Shown: piece after piece, positions 5,471 to 61,774 of the stretch
How the letters are laid out: every line of letters starts with the position of its first letter
Numbering within the stretch: the first letter of the stretch is position 1
Assembly: GCF_016595235.1 (NCBI RefSeq)
Contig: NZ_JAENHL010000008.1
Location: 2,100,961-2,164,960, forward strand
Source of the DNA: Taklimakanibacter albus
Lineage (GTDB): Bacteria > Pseudomonadota > Alphaproteobacteria > Rhizobiales > Aestuariivirgaceae
Reading direction: 5' to 3'
DNA length: 64,000 nucleotides
Program-made: the position numbers and the translations under genes
The notes under the pieces: generated by a model
The model's database searches: none
What the model saw: only the letters and a program-made list of their open reading frames with translations
Told to the model about the DNA's origin: nothing

Positions 5471-6352
5471 CTAGAGACGGCCATTGGCCAGCGCCGCGCC
5501 GATCATGCCGGCCCTGCCCTTGAGAAATGACTGGTGGATCTGCACGTCCTTGGCCGGCTGGTGCCAGATACCGAGGCGCGCCGCCTCGCCAAGAGCGCGC
5601 CAATAAGGCCCGTCGAGGCTCGCCAGCCCGCCACCGACGACCACACGCTGCGGATCGAGCATGTTCACCAGAAGCGCAATGGCATTGCCCAGAATATGGC
5701 CACCGCGATGGAGAAGATTGACGGCACCCGGCTCACCTCTCTCGGCGGCGCTCAGCAGGTCACGGGCGGTTTCGACCGCAAGCCCCGACTCGCGCGCCCG
5801 GCGTAGAAGACCGGCGCCGCCGGCGCTGTCTTCTATGACATCGGTGCCGTCATGGCCATTGGCCAGGTCGACCGGGCTCATGCCGAGACAGATGGCCCAG
5901 CCATGAGCGCCATTATAGCAATCCTCGCCCTTCATCAGGACGCTCGATATGCCGGTGCCGGCATTGACATAGACCCATTGCGCCGCATCGCGGCCGGCGC
6001 CGAAGCGGGCCTCGGCCAGAGCCGCGGCGTGAACATCGGATTCGATCACGATCGTCTCGAAGTCGCTGAAGGCCTGGCGCAGCTCCTTCTCGCATACATG
6101 CACGCGATGAGCGCTGACGATCCGCCCATCATTGTCCACAAGCTCGCATATGCCGATACCGATCTTCGAGACTTCCAAACCGGCGCGCAGTTTCGCAACG
6201 CTGTCTTTCAGCTGCGCCAGATAGGCGGAACCCGTTTCGGCAAGCACAGGCGTATCGAGGATCTCCTCGGCGATCACCTCGCCCTTGGCGAGGTCGATGA
6301 GACCGATCGCCGTCTTGCTGCCGCCGATGTCGATGCCGATCGCGCGTGTCAT
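5471..6352 (-). CDS. ROK-like sugar kinase or regulator lacking the zinc motif
   Basis: The start is ATG 6352 (MTRAIGIDIGGSKTA), which overlaps the bicupin stop as ATGA, implying coupled translation. The 293-residue protein opens with the ASKHA phosphate-binding loop GIDIGGSKT, has a second one at VYVNAGTGISS, and an adenosine-binding VVVGGGLAS near the end. No helix-turn-helix is present, so it is an enzyme rather than an XylR-type repressor. The CxCGxxGCxE zinc motif of ROK kinases is missing: the matching stretch reads GWAICLGMSPVDLANGHDG. It may be a divergent glucokinase or N-acetylhexosamine kinase. The substrate is unknown. Confidence 0.8.
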   Translation of the reverse strand: MTRAIGIDIGGSKTAIGLIDLAKGEVIAEEILDTPVLAETGSAYLAQLKDSVAKLRAGLEVSKIGIGICELVDNDGRIVSAHRVHVCEKELRQAFSDFETIVIESDVHAAALAEARFGAGRDAAQWVYVNAGTGISSVLMKGEDCYNGAHGWAICLGMSPVDLANGHDGTDVIEDSAGGAGLLRRARESGLAVETARDLLSAAERGEPGAVNLLHRGGHILGNAIALLVNMLDPQRVVVGGGLASLDGPYWRALGEAARLGIWHQPAKDVQIHQSFLKGRAGMIGAALANGRL

Positions 6353-55106: not shown

Positions 55107-56123
55107 CTACACCACCACCACAATCAACCGATCCCCCTGACGTGTATCCCCGATGGTGATCTCGACGGGCAGGAACTGCTCGATGACCGCGATATTGCTG
55201 CGCGTATGCGGCGTCGGCCGCAAGGTCGTGAAACGACCGCCGCGGGCGAGCGCCAGGGGCATCAGCAGCTGGTCGGCGATATGCGGGCCGACGGCCGCCT
55301 CGCTCGCCATGTATTTCTCAACCTGGCGCGCCACCTTGACCGCGACCTCTTCCGACGTCACGCCGAAGGCGCCATGGGCGCTGAAGATATCGACGGCGCG
55401 CTCATGGCGGATCTCGATCCACAGGATGTTGCCCGGGCCTGAGGATTCGACCTCGCGGATTTTCACCTCGTCCTCGCTCAGCGACAGAAGCCGCGTGAGC
55501 TTGACGGCCTCGCGGCGGGCGATATCGACGGCGAGATTGGCGAAGACGGCCTCGCCCTGTCGCGACAGCAGGGCGCCGCGATCCTCCAGCATGATCTTGG
55601 CGGCGGGGCGCACCGGACCGATCACCGCTTCGAGCTTGCCGCCGCCCGCCGGATGGAAGCCATGCCGGCACAGAGTGAGGCGCGCTTCGAAACCCGTCGG
55701 CCGGACCGCCGGCAGGAAGACACGGTCAAGATATTCGAAGGACGGCGCCGAGATATTATGCGTGCCGCCTTCGATGACGACGCGCGACGGCGTTGCCTGA
55801 CGCGCCAGCGGCAGGAAGATGGTCTGGAAGACGAGGCAGGCGGCGCCGGCCGAGCCGATGGCGAAATGATAGTCACCCGGCGTGATCGTGCCCGGCACGA
55901 AATCGAGCGCCGTCGCGCCGAGCTCGGCGCCCTTTACGTCGCCGCCGCAGATCTGCGCGGCGGCGCGTACCGCCGCCAGATGCTGGCGCAGCAGACCCGG
56001 CTTCGAACGTCCGGCACGGATATTTTCGATGCGGAAGGGTGTTCCCGTCAGCATCGAGAGGGTGAGAGCGGAGCGGAGGATCTGTCCCCCGCCCTCGCCC
56101 TCGGCCCCGTCGATGGTCAGCAT
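55107..56123 (-). CDS. rtcA: RNA 3'-terminal phosphate cyclase
   Basis: The 338-residue protein begins LTIDGAEGEGGGQILRSALT, the RtcA signature, and has the nucleophilic His near residue 306 in TPHTRSNIAVIEQF. GTHNISAPSFEYL and HGFHPAGGGKLE match the four-repeat RtcA fold. The enzyme uses ATP to convert RNA 3'-phosphates to 2',3'-cyclic phosphates through an AMP-His intermediate, preparing ends for RtcB. It is the last gene of the rsr-Y RNA-kptA-rtcB-rtcA operon, 71 bp after rtcB, with a palindromic element in between. Confidence 0.96.
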   Translation of the reverse strand: MLTIDGAEGEGGGQILRSALTLSMLTGTPFRIENIRAGRSKPGLLRQHLAAVRAAAQICGGDVKGAELGATALDFVPGTITPGDYHFAIGSAGAACLVFQTIFLPLARQATPSRVVIEGGTHNISAPSFEYLDRVFLPAVRPTGFEARLTLCRHGFHPAGGGKLEAVIGPVRPAAKIMLEDRGALLSRQGEAVFANLAVDIARREAVKLTRLLSLSEDEVKIREVESSGPGNILWIEIRHERAVDIFSAHGAFGVTSEEVAVKVARQVEKYMASEAAVGPHIADQLLMPLALARGGRFTTLRPTPHTRSNIAVIEQFLPVEITIGDTRQGDRLIVVVV

Positions 56124-56194: not shown

Positions 56195-57430
<1,236 letters not shown>

Positions 57431-57435
57431 CGTCG

Positions 57436-57981
57436 TCAGTCCTTCACAGTCAGATAATGCGGCGCCACGGCCTCAGTCAGCCAGACGCCATTGTCGGCCT
57501 GGTAGAAAAACAGGCCGTCATCCCGCATCCGGCTTGCCGCGACCAGCAGGACGACCGGCTTGCCATGCCGCATGCCGACCTTGCGCGCCGTCTCCCGGTC
57601 GGCGGAGAGATGCACATGCCGGCGCGCCTGCGGCTTCAGGCCCTCAGCCAGGATCTTGTCCAGCACCGCGGCCGCCGTGCCGTGATACAGCACGGCAGGC
57701 GGGGCTGCGGGCGCAAGCTCAAGATCGACCGCCACCGAATGACCTTGCGCCGCCCGGATCCGCATCCCGTTAGGAGATAGCGTGAAGCGCTTCTTGTCAT
57801 TCGTCGCGACGATCTCGCGCAGGATATCCGGCGTCAGATCCTGGCCATTGGCGCGCGCTTTGGCGATGAGATCATCCGTCGCGACCCAGCCGCCCTCGCC
57901 CAGCACGAGGCCGATTTCCTCGGGCGCGTGGCGCAAGACATAGCTCAGGAATTTGCTGAGCCTGGTGATGTTCTTTTCCAT
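57436..57981 (-). CDS. kptA: RNA 2'-phosphotransferase (Tpt1/KptA)
   Basis: ATG 57981 (MEKNITRLSKFLSYVLRH) gives 181 residues. An in-frame GTG 15 bases upstream is possible. The Tpt1 elements are present: SYVLRHAPEEIGL (first Arg-His), LYHGT with the following LAEGLKPQARRHVHLS, and RKVGMRHGKPVVL, forming the R-H-R-R NAD-handling set. Tpt1/KptA transfers an internal RNA 2'-phosphate to NAD. RtcB does not itself leave a 2'-phosphate, so its place here suggests work on ends or junctions made by other enzymes, or on modified RNA. It lies directly after the Y RNA cluster. Confidence 0.93.
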   Translation of the reverse strand: MEKNITRLSKFLSYVLRHAPEEIGLVLGEGGWVATDDLIAKARANGQDLTPDILREIVATNDKKRFTLSPNGMRIRAAQGHSVAVDLELAPAAPPAVLYHGTAAAVLDKILAEGLKPQARRHVHLSADRETARKVGMRHGKPVVLLVAASRMRDDGLFFYQADNGVWLTEAVAPHYLTVKD

Positions 57982-58002
57982 GTTCTTTTTCTTCACTCAA
58001 CT

Positions 58003-58148
58003 AGACAAGGCCCTTACGACAAGGAGGTGATGAAACAACCCGCTCTATCCATCTGAGCTACAGGTCCATAGATGGCGGACCTGGCGGGACTCGAACCCGC
58101 GACCTGGAGATTAACAGTCTGTAGTTCCATCGGCATTCGTAAGGGTCT
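58003..58148 (-). ncRNA. Y RNA module C: YrlA-type RNA with permuted tRNA-like domain
   Basis: On the minus strand a lower helix CCCTTACGA/TCGTAAGGG (58137-58145 with 58011-58019, 9 bp) is followed by an ATGCC loop, then an 8-bp helix GATGGAAC/GTTTCATC (58124-58131 with 58029-58036) and ACTACAG. Inside lie tRNA parts in permuted order: a small AGA-CTGTTAA-TCT loop, AGGTC, T arm GCGGG-TTCGAGT-CCCGC (58084-58100), acceptor 3' strand CAGGTCC, loop GCCATCTAT, acceptor 5' strand GGACCTG (perfect 7 bp, 58061-58083), TA, and D arm GCTC-AGATGGATA-GAGC (58042-58058). The sealed acceptor and Ro stem in place of the anticodon stem match YrlA RNAs. Confidence 0.85.
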
Positions 58149-58168
58149 GTTTCTTCATTAATCCATCA

Positions 58169-58303
58169 GGCGACGAAATTTGCGAGACGTTTCCTGAGCT
58201 ACGACCGGCTTGCGCCGGCGGGAGGATTGCGCCTCCGACCTCCTGTCCATGACAGACAGGCGCTCTACTCTACCTGGTGCTGTAGTCCCGCAGGCATTCG
58301 CCC
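58169..58303 (-). ncRNA. Y RNA module B: complete tRNA-like cloverleaf opened in the D loop
   Basis: Lower helix GGCGA/TCGCC (58298-58302 with 58169-58173), loop ATGCC, and upper helix TGCGGGAC/GTCTCGCA (58285-58292 with 58181-58188) lead into ACTACAG. Next come D-stem GAGC (58262-58265), G, a 6-bp hairpin CCTGTC-TGTCATG-GACAGG (58242-58260), a 5-base variable loop AGGTC, T arm GGAGG-CGCAAT-CCTCC (58221-58236), an acceptor stem sealed by GCAA (58205-58218, CG pairs outside with one bulge), TA, and D-stem GCTC (58196-58199). All cloverleaf parts are present, and the RNA ends leave through the D loop rather than the anticodon stem. Confidence 0.75.
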
Positions 58304-58309
58304 GCTGGC

Positions 58310-58379
58310 GGTGACAAGATCGGACAAGACGGCCTTCCGGCCAGTTGCAGATACCACTGTAGTCCTGTCCGCATTCACC
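58310..58379 (-). ncRNA. Y RNA module A: minimal Ro-type stem without tRNA domain
   Basis: Lower helix GGTGA/TCACC (58375-58379 with 58310-58314), loop ATGC opposite GATCTTG, and upper helix GGACAGGAC/GTCTTGTCC (58362-58370 with 58322-58330, 9 bp with one G-U) are closed by ACTACAG and a small GGCC-GGAA-GGCC hairpin. The two-helix design and ACTACAG match modules B and C, but no tRNA-like part exists. It may be a second Y RNA class, like the shorter companion Y RNAs of other bacteria, or a degraded copy. Confidence 0.65.
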
Positions 58380-58387
58380 AATCCGAT

Positions 58388-58422: not shown

Positions 58423-59982
58423 TTACAGCTTGATCTTCTCGATCTCGCCGATCCAATGATCCGCACTCAAGCCGTTCTCGGCAAAAGCCTGGATCATCTC
58501 GAAGACCGCGTCGGAGAAACCTCCGACATTCAGAATATCCGCACGCTCCACGGCCTGCGTGGTCGTGTAGGGCTGGATGTCGACGCAGACGAGCTTCGCC
58601 CCAGGGTTCACCCGCTTGACCTTCGACCAGGCCCGCATCGTCGCCGTTCCCGCGTAACCACCCTTGGCGGCATCCACCCAGGATTCGTTATCGGAAACGA
58701 AGACGACGAGGTCGACCTTCTCCTTACGGCGCGCCAGCCGCTCGAGCGGCGCCGAGCAGTTGGTTCCGCCACCGCCGATGCCGGCCAGCTTCTGCGCATT
58801 GGTCAGCACCGTGTCGTGCGGATTGAGGTCGATGTCGACCACATCCTGCTCGAAGGGCAGCACCTCGACCTCGCGGTTGCGGCGCAGGAACGACGCGGCC
58901 ACCAGGGCCGCGACATCGATGCAGCGCACCACGCTCGAAGCACCCTTGCGGTAACCCGTCACCGGCGACGCCATCGAGCCCGAAACGTCCGGGCACACGA
59001 CGATACGCTGGTCGAGCTTCGGCACATTGCCGATGGCGATTTCCATCGCCTCCTGCAAAGCGTTGCGCACGACCTTCGGCACTTCCCCGGCCGAGGCGGC
59101 ATAGGCCGCCATCAGCTGGTAGGGGAAGACCTTGGCGCGGGCGATCGCGTAGGGATCGGCAAGCCGCTCGGCAACACGCTCCGACATGCCGGCAATACCG
59201 AACACGCCGTGGCGCGCGAAGGTATTGAGGCCTTGGCGCAAAGTCTGCCAGGACGCCGTTTCGGCAATCGCCGCCCACTGCTTCTGCGTCAGCGGAAGCG
59301 CGGTCAGCAACTGGAACGGCACGTCGGGTACCGGCAGCGTCGGGTCGCGCTTGAAGGCTTCCAGGTCCTTCACGATCTGCGGCAATTGGGCGACGTCATA
59401 AGGACGGCCGACCACATAGCCATAGAGCGCTTCGCGCGTCTTCGACTGCGGCTTCGGATGCGCCATGCGGATGATATCGGCCAGCGAGGGATCGTTGCCG
59501 ATGCTCGCCCGCAAGATCTCTTCATCCGAGGCCTGGGCCAGCCAGGCGAGGATCAGCCGCTTGGGCCGCGAACCAAAGGACTTGCGGCCGACCGCGCCCG
59601 AGCGGATGACCTGCGCGAAGTTGCGCAGCATCCGACCGTTCACCACGACACGCGGAAACGCCTTGGCGAAATCACCCGTGTCGAGCGTGGCGAGGATGGC
59701 CAGCAGCGCCGCCGGCATGTCCTTCATATGACCCTTTTCGCGCGCATAGATCGCCGTCTTGGCGATGAAGGCGGCATCGACGAAACGGGCCAGCTTCAAG
59801 ACCTCGGCGAGCTGCTCCCGCGGCTCGGCATAGAAGGTCCGGTTGAAGGTCCCGGTGGCGGCCAGTTGCGCCAGCGCGGCGCGCGGCTCCAAGCCATAGG
59901 CCGGGGCTTTCTCGCGGTTCCAGGCATTCGCACGCGGAAGCAGCTTTCCGATCGTCGATGCAAACACGGATTTGCTTGCCAT
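58423..59982 (-). CDS. rsr: Ro60-like TROVE-domain RNA-binding protein (Rsr)
   Basis: The 519-residue protein is a Ro60 orthologue. An N-terminal all-helical TROVE domain (ARFVDAAFIAKTAIYAREKG, DMPAALLAILATLDTGDF, IRSGAVGRKSFG) forms the RNA-binding ring. A C-terminal von Willebrand A domain follows, with the metal site DVSGSM near residue 326 and a second acidic loop FVSDNESW. Ro60 binds misfolded RNA ends through its central hole and Y RNAs on its outer face, and in bacteria works with exonucleases such as PNPase. Start ATG 59982 has AAGGA upstream and lies just after a sigma-54 promoter. It is first in the RNA-repair operon. Confidence 0.95.
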   Translation of the reverse strand: MASKSVFASTIGKLLPRANAWNREKAPAYGLEPRAALAQLAATGTFNRTFYAEPREQLAEVLKLARFVDAAFIAKTAIYAREKGHMKDMPAALLAILATLDTGDFAKAFPRVVVNGRMLRNFAQVIRSGAVGRKSFGSRPKRLILAWLAQASDEEILRASIGNDPSLADIIRMAHPKPQSKTREALYGYVVGRPYDVAQLPQIVKDLEAFKRDPTLPVPDVPFQLLTALPLTQKQWAAIAETASWQTLRQGLNTFARHGVFGIAGMSERVAERLADPYAIARAKVFPYQLMAAYAASAGEVPKVVRNALQEAMEIAIGNVPKLDQRIVVCPDVSGSMASPVTGYRKGASSVVRCIDVAALVAASFLRRNREVEVLPFEQDVVDIDLNPHDTVLTNAQKLAGIGGGGTNCSAPLERLARRKEKVDLVVFVSDNESWVDAAKGGYAGTATMRAWSKVKRVNPGAKLVCVDIQPYTTTQAVERADILNVGGFSDAVFEMIQAFAENGLSADHWIGEIEKIKL

Positions 59983-60015: not shown

Positions 60016-60033
60016 TTGCAGCGCGCGTGCCAA
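60016..60033 (-). promoter_or_regulatory. Sigma-54 promoter of the RNA-repair operon
   Basis: On the minus strand TTGGCACGCGCGCTGCAA matches the sigma-54 consensus TGGCACG-N4-TTGCA except one base, with the invariant GG (60030-60031) and GC (60018-60019) exactly 10 bases apart. Transcription would start near 60005, about 25 bp before the rsr ATG. The facing gene encodes the sigma-54 activator RtcR. Confidence 0.88.
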
Positions 60034-60172: not shown

Positions 60173-61774
60173 ATGACCAAGAAGAACGTCGTCATCGGCT
60201 TCGTGGGCACGACGCTCGATACCGGCAAATGGGAGAGCCGCTGGGAGCGCTGGCGGCCGACCATCGCCGTGTGCCAGCAGGAGGACTTCATCGTCGACCG
60301 GTTGGAGCTCATCCATGATCATCATGCGGCCGGCCTGACCGAGAGGCTCACACGCGACATCGCCCAGGTCTCGCCCGAGACCCAGGTGGCACCCGTCATC
60401 ATCAATCTGAAAGACCCGTGGGATTTCGAGGAGGTCTATGGCGCGCTGCATGATTTCTCCCGCGGCCACCACTTCGACACCGAGAACGAAGACTATTTCA
60501 TCAACATCACCACCGGCACGCATGTGGCGCAGATCTGCTGGTTCCTGTTGGCCGAGACGCGCCATGTGCCGGCGAAGCTCATGCAGCTCTCACCGCCCCG
60601 CAAAGCGCGCGGCGACATCACGAGCCCGATGCGCATCATTGATCTCGATCTGTCGCGGTATGACCGCATCGCCACCCGTTTCAGGGCAGAGCAGCGTGAC
60701 GCCGCTTCTTTCCTCAAATCCGGTATCGCCACGCGCAGCCCGGCCTTCAACCGGCTGATCGACCGCATCGAGCAGGTCGCCATCAATTCCAGGGCGCCGT
60801 TCCTTCTCATGGGTCCGACGGGCGCGGGCAAATCGCACTTGGCGCGGCGCATCCATGAGCTCAAGAAGAGCCGCCATCAGATCGAAGGCCCGTTCGTCGA
60901 CGTCAATTGCGCCACCTTGCGCGGCGACACCGCGATGTCCTCGCTGTTCGGCCATGTGAAGGGCGCCTTCACCGGCGCGCAATCGGCGCGGCCGGGCCTG
61001 CTCAAATCGGCCGATGGCGGGCTCCTGTTTCTCGACGAGATCGGCGAGCTCGGCCTCGACGAGCAGGCGATGATCCTGCGCGCCATCGAGGAGAAACGTT
61101 TCCTGCCCGTCGGCGCCGACAAGGAAACAGCGAGCGACTTCCAGCTCATCGCCGGCACCAACCGCGATCTCAACGAAGCGGTGCGTCAGGGACGATTCCG
61201 CGAGGATCTCCTGGCGCGCCTGAACTTGTGGACCTTCATGCTGCCGGCGCTGAAGGAGCGGACGGAGGATATCGAGCCTAATATCGATTTCGAGCTCGAG
61301 CGCCATGCGCGCGACGACGGTGCCAAGATCACCTTCAACAAGGAGGCGCGCGCCCGCTTCGTCACTTTCGCCACCTCGACCCAAGCGGAATGGAGCGCCA
61401 ATTTCCGCGACCTCTCCGCCTCGATCACCCGCATGGTGACGCTGGCGCCCAAGGGCCGCATCGACGAAGAGACCGTCACAGAAGAGATCGGACGGCTGAA
61501 AGACCTGTGGTCCGGTGGCCGGCGCGGCCAGCTCAGCGACATATTGAACGAGGTTTTCCCCGAAGGGCGCCTTGCCCGCATCGATCTCTTCGACCAGGCG
61601 CAGCTCGCGCAAGTGATCACGGTGTGCCGCGACAGCGCGTCGCTCAGCGCCGCGGGCCGCCGGCTCTTCGCCGCGTCCCGCGCCACCAAGACCAGCGGCA
61701 ACGATGCCGACCGCCTGCGCAAGTATCTCGCCCGCTTCGATCTCGACTGGGCCACGGTGAGCGGGAAAGGGTGA
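60173..61774 (+). CDS. rtcR: Sigma-54-dependent activator RtcR
   Basis: The 533-residue protein has an N-terminal CARF-like domain (about 1-180; VVIGFVGTTLDTGKW, NITTGTHVAQICWFLLAET) that in RtcR senses damaged RNA. A sigma-54 AAA+ domain follows: Walker A MGPTGAGKSHLARRI near 220, GAFTGA in HVKGAFTGAQ, Walker B LLFLDEIGELGLDEQ, and the Arg-finger region RFREDLLARL. A C-terminal helix-turn-helix ends the protein (LAQVITVCRDSASLSAAGRR). It faces the rtc operon and should activate its sigma-54 promoter when RNA ends with 2',3'-cyclic phosphate accumulate, as reported for enterobacterial RtcR. Confidence 0.96.
   Translation: MTKKNVVIGFVGTTLDTGKWESRWERWRPTIAVCQQEDFIVDRLELIHDHHAAGLTERLTRDIAQVSPETQVAPVIINLKDPWDFEEVYGALHDFSRGHHFDTENEDYFINITTGTHVAQICWFLLAETRHVPAKLMQLSPPRKARGDITSPMRIIDLDLSRYDRIATRFRAEQRDAASFLKSGIATRSPAFNRLIDRIEQVAINSRAPFLLMGPTGAGKSHLARRIHELKKSRHQIEGPFVDVNCATLRGDTAMSSLFGHVKGAFTGAQSARPGLLKSADGGLLFLDEIGELGLDEQAMILRAIEEKRFLPVGADKETASDFQLIAGTNRDLNEAVRQGRFREDLLARLNLWTFMLPALKERTEDIEPNIDFELERHARDDGAKITFNKEARARFVTFATSTQAEWSANFRDLSASITRMVTLAPKGRIDEETVTEEIGRLKDLWSGGRRGQLSDILNEVFPEGRLARIDLFDQAQLAQVITVCRDSASLSAAGRRLFAASRATKTSGNDADRLRKYLARFDLDWATVSGKG

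Follow-up and report, generated by a model that had tools for sequence, protein, structure and literature searches.

YrlA is described as a circularly permuted tRNA mimic carried on a large basal stem, with its gene beside rsr in the RtcR/RtcB operon (PMC11472068, PMC8394870, PMC7790460). The arms that it is said to mimic are D, T and acceptor; DusA and TruB are named as enzymes that use it as a substrate, and PNPase as a protein that it binds (PMC8394870). Broken tRNAs activate the operon in Salmonella, where YrlA is also suggested as a possible competitive inhibitor of the nuclease (PMC7790460). PrrC cuts tRNA-Lys (PMC10264068) and colicin D cuts tRNA-Arg (PMC7790460). One type I permuted tRNA gene of the red alga Cyanidioschyzon merolae has its junction in the D loop, at 20/21 (PMC3978253). 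Both a D-loop-permuted tRNA gene (PMC3978253) and YrlA as a permuted tRNA mimic (PMC11472068) are already known. Two-piece (permuted) tmRNA is likewise a tRNA-like bacterial RNA made from a permuted gene, with its break downstream of the tag coding region (PMC3978253). A Y RNA opened in the D loop was not found in the literature searched, whose partial coverage leaves room for an earlier description.

The window, the whole 64-kb stretch of DNA that was analysed, contains the following features around rsr:

60173..61774, plus strand: rtcR, sigma54 activator (Pfam PF06956, PF00158)
60017..60032, minus strand: sigma54-type promoter-like site TGGCACG-N5-TGCA, 34 bases upstream of rsr
58423..59982, minus strand: rsr (Ro60; Pfam PF25045, and weakly PF05731, 24.4 bits against a cut-off of 23)
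58309..58380, minus strand: module C, a short Y RNA that shares the Ro-type stem of modules A and B (sequence and outer-stem pairing)
58167..58304, minus strand: module B, an entire Y RNA of the D-loop-open type, modelled at 138 nt (full-length match of 112.2 bits to covariance model R1, whose seed includes this copy)
58013..58143, minus strand: module A, a tRNA-like Y RNA opened in the 5' strand of the anticodon stem (Rfam YrlA, 66.9 bits, slightly below the cut-off of 69)
57436..57996, minus strand: kptA/tpt1, RNA 2'-phosphotransferase (Pfam PF01885)
56195..57430, minus strand: rtcB, RNA ligase (Pfam PF01139)
55107..56123, minus strand: rtcA, RNA 3'-phosphate cyclase (Pfam PF01137)

The order on the minus strand is rsr, a 426-base gap, kptA, rtcB and rtcA, and rtcR runs in the opposite direction. 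The promoter-like site is the sole mismatch-free match in the 64 kb to the sigma54 consensus; with up to one mismatch, two sites are found in the window and 2.96 are expected by chance. The gap holds three tandem Y RNAs in the order C, B and A, and by sequence reading each carries the stem motifs GAAUGC...ACUACA...T(T/C)GUC. A motif test finds no T arm in module C. ARAGORN calls no tRNA in the window, and no Rfam model matches it at the gathering cut-off. In a sister genome (L006), 193 bases (5816-6008) separate B from A, compared with 23 in the window; by eye this stretch resembles a small repeat element.

The earlier note had read module B as a whole tRNA cloverleaf permuted at the D loop. 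All the elements it named (both D strands, the hairpin, the AGGTC variable loop, the T arm, the GCAA-sealed acceptor and the TA of positions 8-9) are present on the minus strand, listed here from the 5' end of the RNA:

58285..58304, minus strand: 5' side of the Ro-type stem, with outer CGGGCGA, AUGCC and inner UGCGGGAC, pairing with 58188-58167
58266..58284, minus strand: UACA linker and 3' part of the D loop, with GG (18-19), A21 and a TAGAG duplication (sequence reading)
58262..58265, minus strand: 3' strand of the D stem, GAGC (tRNA 22-25), followed by one base, G
58242..58260, minus strand: anticodon-like hairpin CCUGUC-UGUCAUG-GACAGG (helix 4, covarying)
58237..58241, minus strand: variable loop AGGUC (sequence)
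58221..58236, minus strand: T arm of 5 bp, GGAGG/CCUCC, with a degenerate 6-nt loop CGCAAU (pairing)
58202..58220, minus strand: acceptor stem CGCCGGC-GCAA-GCCGGUCG, sealed by GCAA, without free ends or CCA (stability and folding)
58196..58201, minus strand: U8-A9 and the 5' strand of the D stem, GCUC (58199-58196; U8 conservation)
58189..58195, minus strand: 5' part of the D loop (A14, G15), exit into the Ro stem (conservation)
58167..58188, minus strand: 3' side of the Ro-type stem (pairing and covariation)

The proposed exit of both RNA ends through the D loop into a Ro-type stem is borne out, the 3' side of this stem following GCUC. The window copy is the least canonical and most degenerate of the 28 distinct members described below. 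Its T loop has 6 nt (7 nt in the other 27), six bases separate GG from A21 (one or two in other members), and its acceptor stem consists of 6 bp plus unpaired bases. The TAGAG duplication allows two registers of the D stem. The minimum free energy (MFE) fold uses the first TAGAG copy and pairs GAGU with GCUC at a probability of 0.59-0.62, compared with 0.08 for GAGC/GCUC; the cloverleaf with GAGC/GCUC has -51.1 kcal/mol and the MFE fold -58.1 kcal/mol. One relative, L007, lacks the duplication and shows neither the long GG-A21 spacing nor the short T loop, its T loop being TTCGTTT. The window copy of B may be drifting. Its anticodon-like loop contains UGUCA, as in tRNA-Asp; an Asp-anticodon reading of B is rejected, as the loops of the relatives differ and mostly have 4 nt. 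A purpose-written descriptor of the B topology, pure structure, fits 15 of 16 curated members and also 9 of 2000 dinucleotide shuffles of the 138 nt of B, so that the sequence by itself is only modestly improbable and the comparative evidence settles the matter.

A DNA search with B gave matches in only 4 of 150 genomes, including its own (G000) and one match of 34 bases (G102), and for this reason a covariance model was needed. The model, R1, was built from 10 members. Protein similarity was used to collect rsr loci in genomes, plasmids and phages, and the DNA 3' of rsr was then read; the plasmid sample comprises 11 of 77 rsr-matching records and the phage sample 2 of 355. This search for the B topology at rsr loci, which the earlier note had suggested, recovers a conserved class. 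Across 33 sources the scores fall into two groups, 17 matches at 84.6-122.7 bits and the rest at or below 59.5. Altogether there are 28 distinct D-loop-open RNAs at 84.6-122.7 bits (seed included, and L006 left out since its B is identical to that of the window), and other Y RNAs stay at or below 59.5. Six non-seed loci with a sequence of their own are recovered at 84.6-120.7 bits. Strong matches occur in 16 of 30 non-phage rsr loci, namely the window, L006, L007, L009, L016, L018, L019 (two), L020, L024-L029, L031 and L032; this is not a frequency, because 11 of 77 plasmids were sampled, L006 has the window sequence and L025-L029 are close relatives. The hosts are Alphaproteobacteria, among them Hyphomicrobiales, Emcibacter and Novosphingobium. 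In the two phage loci examined, R1 gives one match of 27.3 bits over positions 20-110 (L035) and none (L036). Among viral contigs scanned for Rsr, 8 stretches matched and none is a relative.

Against 385 Alphaproteobacteria genomes, R1 has some match at E <=0.01 in 353, and among the matches listed the background reaches about 46 bits at most. Scores above 47 bits are found, among the matches listed, in G000, G191, G148 and G488, all with rsr, and scores of at least 84 bits only in G000 and G191, both rsr-positive. Seven of the 385 genomes are rsr-positive, and strict B is present in two of these seven. In the family of genome G770, 9 of 247 genomes have matches at E <=1e-9, 15 matches in all, 14 of them at 91.9-119.5 bits, and rsr adjoins the matches in 8 of the 9. 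The exception is G981. Here rsr was found neither within 5.5 kb around the Y RNA array nor genome-wide (where an empty search does not by itself show absence). The array (L084 879-1534) consists of two B members and three weaker matches, followed by an RtcB-like gene, with AIPR and DUF4420 genes of defence type upstream. Thus 26 of the 28 members adjoin rsr and the other two both lie in the G981 array; the claim that every strong B match sits at rsr failed in this genome, which weighs slightly against the preferred reading of B given below.

The helices of B are conserved by compensatory change. In the 28 distinct members, 97.6% of cells are paired and 22 of 31 pairs change on both sides. None of 500 shuffles reaches the observed value on any of five measures; the alignment was fitted to the model, and the shuffles keep the relatedness of the sequences in place. 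A control with slid partners gives 2 to 7 pairs changing on both sides, and an alignment of 10 sequences built independently of the model has 16 such pairs out of 31. In the Ro-type stem 11 of 15 pairs change on both sides (outer 5/7, inner 6/8), with 94.4% of cells paired in the outer and 99.1% in the inner part (n = 28). The corresponding counts are 1/4 for the D stem, 6/6 for the anticodon-like stem, 3/5 for the T stem, which is 100% paired in the 28 sequences, and 1/1 for the first acceptor pair. Beyond this pair the acceptor hairpin varies in length and was assessed by stability instead. Folded alone, it is matched in stability by 304 of 8400 letter shuffles, 154 of them among the 300 for L070, where it is no better than shuffles; for the anticodon-like arm the number is 84 of 8400. 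A lack of covariation in the D, anticodon-like or acceptor helices, which the earlier note had named as speaking against the topology, is not what the homologues show, the acceptor being upheld mainly by its stability. Because the homologues covary in the D, anticodon-like and T helices, and with the D strands flanking the module, the D-loop opening is supported as a recurrent permutation distinct from that of YrlA.

At the level of aligned sequences, the topology of B, its helices, its conserved tRNA core and its place in Y RNA arrays are established. Single-sequence folding leaves the cloverleaf fold itself unproven. Partition functions give strong Ro stems for 15 of the 16 curated members, the outer stem of L007 being at 0.0. 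The D stem stays below 0.5 in 9 of the 16, the window copy included, with values of 0.03-0.44 in 8 of the other 15. The anticodon-like arm is weak in L007, L018 and L024 (0.10-0.15), and the T arm in L007, L028 and L029 (0.05-0.18). These secondary-structure energies are blind to tertiary contacts.

The positions that make up the tRNA core are kept almost throughout. Among the 28 members, A14, GG18-19, A21, purine 26 and C48 are present in all, and U8 and G15 in 27 each. In the 27 members with a 7-nt T loop, T54 is found in 26, T55 in 25, C56 in 27, purine 57 in 27 and A58 in 26. Since these positions are retained, the Ro stem appears to enter the naturally variable part of the D loop. The D strands are GCUC/GAGC in 22 members and GCGC/GCGC in 6, and the variable loop has 5 nt in 27 of 28. 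The ends of the tRNA body are less uniform. GCAA seals the acceptor in 7 of 28, and the seals are mostly short loops without CCA. The anticodon-like loop has 4 nt in 19 of 28 and 7 nt in 2 of 28 by MFE. The hairpin that the earlier note described at the anticodon position is therefore real and covarying, but it does not mimic an anticodon; with a 4-nt loop in most members, B mimics the tRNA body.

When the order of a tRNA is restored, ARAGORN calls a tRNA in 17 of 28 members with the best of four join lengths (17, 17, 16 and 15 for single lengths), compared with none of the 28 as encoded. No call is made for the window copy, for L024 and L009, or for a further eight members. With the D strands, anticodon arm and acceptor shuffled, calls drop to 0 of 560 for one join length and 10 of 560 for any of four. 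Shuffling the 5' strand of the acceptor alone still leaves 111 of 560 called, and the acceptor therefore adds little to this test.

Taken together, B probably belongs to a separate, conserved class of Y RNAs, as a complete class I tRNA cloverleaf permuted at the D loop that would serve as a Ro60 adaptor with a tRNA-shaped body. The closest described RNA is YrlA (Rfam RF02553; Salmonella YrlA, PDB 6CU1), and B shares with it the place beside rsr in an RtcR/RtcB operon, the large basal stem, the T arm, the D arm, the acceptor and the fact of permutation. It is very unlikely that B is simply an ordinary YrlA of described topology with an extra hairpin. The two do have the same Ro-type stem, T arm and sealed acceptor, and on the Rfam model with relaxed limits B scores 27.5 bits, a weak match that does not reach the gathering cut-off of 69; its stem part aligns at high posterior, identifying the basal stem as common to both. 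B is, however, opened in the D loop and has an anticodon-like arm. The contiguous D arm that lies 3' of the acceptor in the YrlA model and in module A is absent; instead the D strands flank the module and a hairpin occupies the anticodon position. On YrlA, B scores 32.7-33.4 bits in 3 of 10 loci scanned (E <=0.01; unlisted in the other 7), against 84.6-122.7 bits for the members on the D-loop-open model (seed included).

That B resembles a tRNA by chance, or is what is left of a tRNA gene, is highly improbable. The degeneracy of the window copy and the fit of the bare descriptor to 9 of 2000 shuffles would agree with it, yet 28 distinct covarying members exist, 26 of them beside rsr, and chance as the origin of the class is rejected on covariation (0 of 500 shuffles). 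Just as hard to credit is the idea that B is a precursor in permuted order from which processing and joining make a functional tRNA, as with the type I genes of a red alga. The C. merolae gene with its D-loop junction at 20/21 is a precedent for the break (PMC3978253), and RtcB is encoded in the operon. The C. merolae permuted genes, however, make tRNAs via a BHB motif, whereas B has a conserved Ro-type stem joining its ends at the break, a sealed acceptor, mostly closed by short loops without CCA, and no anticodon. The working anticodon loop and CCA end of the algal genes are not found in the B class, in which only 2 of 28 anticodon loops have 7 nt by MFE. Two-piece tmRNA, for its part, is not known to have a Ro stem. 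A further reading makes B a competitive inhibitor of anticodon nucleases, with the body bound and no anticodon to cut. It is possible, if rather unlikely: the tRNA core is kept while the loop is reduced to 4 nt in 19 of 28, and activation of the Salmonella operon by broken tRNAs, together with the inhibition suggested there for YrlA, fits such a role (PMC7790460), but B would go unrecognised by nucleases whose target is the anticodon loop itself.

For the preferred reading, a Ro60 adaptor with a tRNA-shaped body, the following mechanism is proposed. B would be made with the repair operon under RtcR and sigma54 control; mitomycin C is an inducer of the Salmonella operon. In the permuted topology its ends pass into the Ro-type stem from the D loop, roughly between positions 15 and 18. 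This opening falls in the variable part of the loop and spares the tRNA core, and a short loop seals the natural tRNA ends. Ro60 would bind the basal stem, and the module would fold into a tRNA-like L. B would then act as a tether or adaptor that presents acceptor-like and anticodon-like arms with neither CCA nor anticodon, so that a protein that recognises tRNA could be recruited to the Ro60 particle or kept occupied there. A sealed acceptor and a short anticodon loop make aminoacylation, decoding and anticodon cutting unlikely for B, and recognition of the tRNA body is its likely role. The D-loop-open design seems to offer a second route to a Y RNA that mimics tRNA. It points to more than one permutation among the tRNA mimics of bacterial Y RNAs, and shows that such mimics may have an anticodon arm. 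The well-formed members in soil and plant-associated bacteria, for instance in Rhizobium etli (L025) and in laboratory strains like R. etli CIAT 652 and Methylosinus trichosporium OB3b, offer test cases for the role of Y RNAs in RNA-repair operons.

Module A shares with B the Ro-type stem and a whole tRNA cloverleaf. It differs in that its opening splits the anticodon stem, between nt 28 and 29, and in that it keeps a 7-nt loop of anticodon type. Two of its elements are relevant here:

58120-58108, minus strand: module A hairpin AGA-CUGUUAA-UCU (sequence)
58075-58073, minus strand: encoded CCA within the acceptor-sealing loop of module A (sequence)

A CCA in this loop is also seen by eye in several, not all, Hyphomicrobiales relatives. 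The description of A as a YrlA-like copy beside B holds in that it comes near YrlA in score (66.9 bits); it needs amending in that the anticodon stem is kept, split by the Ro stem at 28/29. In this copy and in many relatives nothing of the anticodon arm is missing: the Ro stem separates 3 bp plus the 7-nt loop from the other 2 bp. Units with a contiguous D arm number 42 in the sample, counting one B RNA picked by mistake, and the copy in L016 is missed by the pattern. Plain A copies exist as well; 10 of the 42 have no anticodon hairpin by the criterion used, one of these being a false pick. Covariation was assessed in 30 units (24 distinct) at fixed spacing, L007 and L092 being among those left out. 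In the 24 distinct units the two parts of the split stem pair in 70 of 72 and 48 of 48 cells, and none of 2000 shuffles reaches either value. U33 is present in 17 of the 24. The loop triplets are GUU (7), GUC (4), UUU (3), AUC (2) and one each of CUU, CCG, CAU, CCU, UUG, UAU, UGC and AGC; no probability is attached to this tally because the sequences are related. GUN is the target set of colicin E5.

Modules A and B form natural pairs in which one and the same tRNA body would be held on Ro60 at different corners. Being opened at the anticodon stem, module A would hang the other way round, with its elbow exposed, and we propose that its faces are complementary to those of B. Type A could be a bait, as its loops (most often GUU, GUC and Lys) match tRNAs hit by anticodon nucleases, and type B, having lost the anticodon, could be an uncuttable body mimic. 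In its full form this proposal is speculative and may well be wrong: Alphaproteobacteria Ro60 operons would carry two complementary whole-tRNA permutations, A a cuttable, sensed bait and B an uncuttable body mimic, with several tRNAs captured on the B scaffold. Such capture of several tRNAs onto one D-loop-open scaffold is suggested by the occurrence of GAGC-type, GCGC-type and class II forms. The class II versions, with a variable arm and a GCG/CGC D stem, are found in L013, where the anticodon arm is not resolved, and in L018, L019 and L021. We take the class II versions to be like tRNA-Leu and the GCGC type to be Pro-like.

Other Y RNA forms occur at the collected loci. The Y RNAs of L008, L012, L014, L023, L030, L031 and L033 that combine a T arm with a GGTA-like piece, and in which no D stem is seen by eye, are possibly reduced D-loop-open forms. 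The Emcibacter rsr locus (L009) has an ordinary tRNA gene between its Y RNAs (5811-5882; 71.2 bits, anticodon GUU by eye). L016, L031 and L032 contain a further form whose D strands are AAGC/GCTT and whose anticodon side carries a long insert. A third form, with a D-arm-like element CTCTCTGGCACGAG (or near it) and a small acceptor, is present in L018, L019, L020 and L025-L030.
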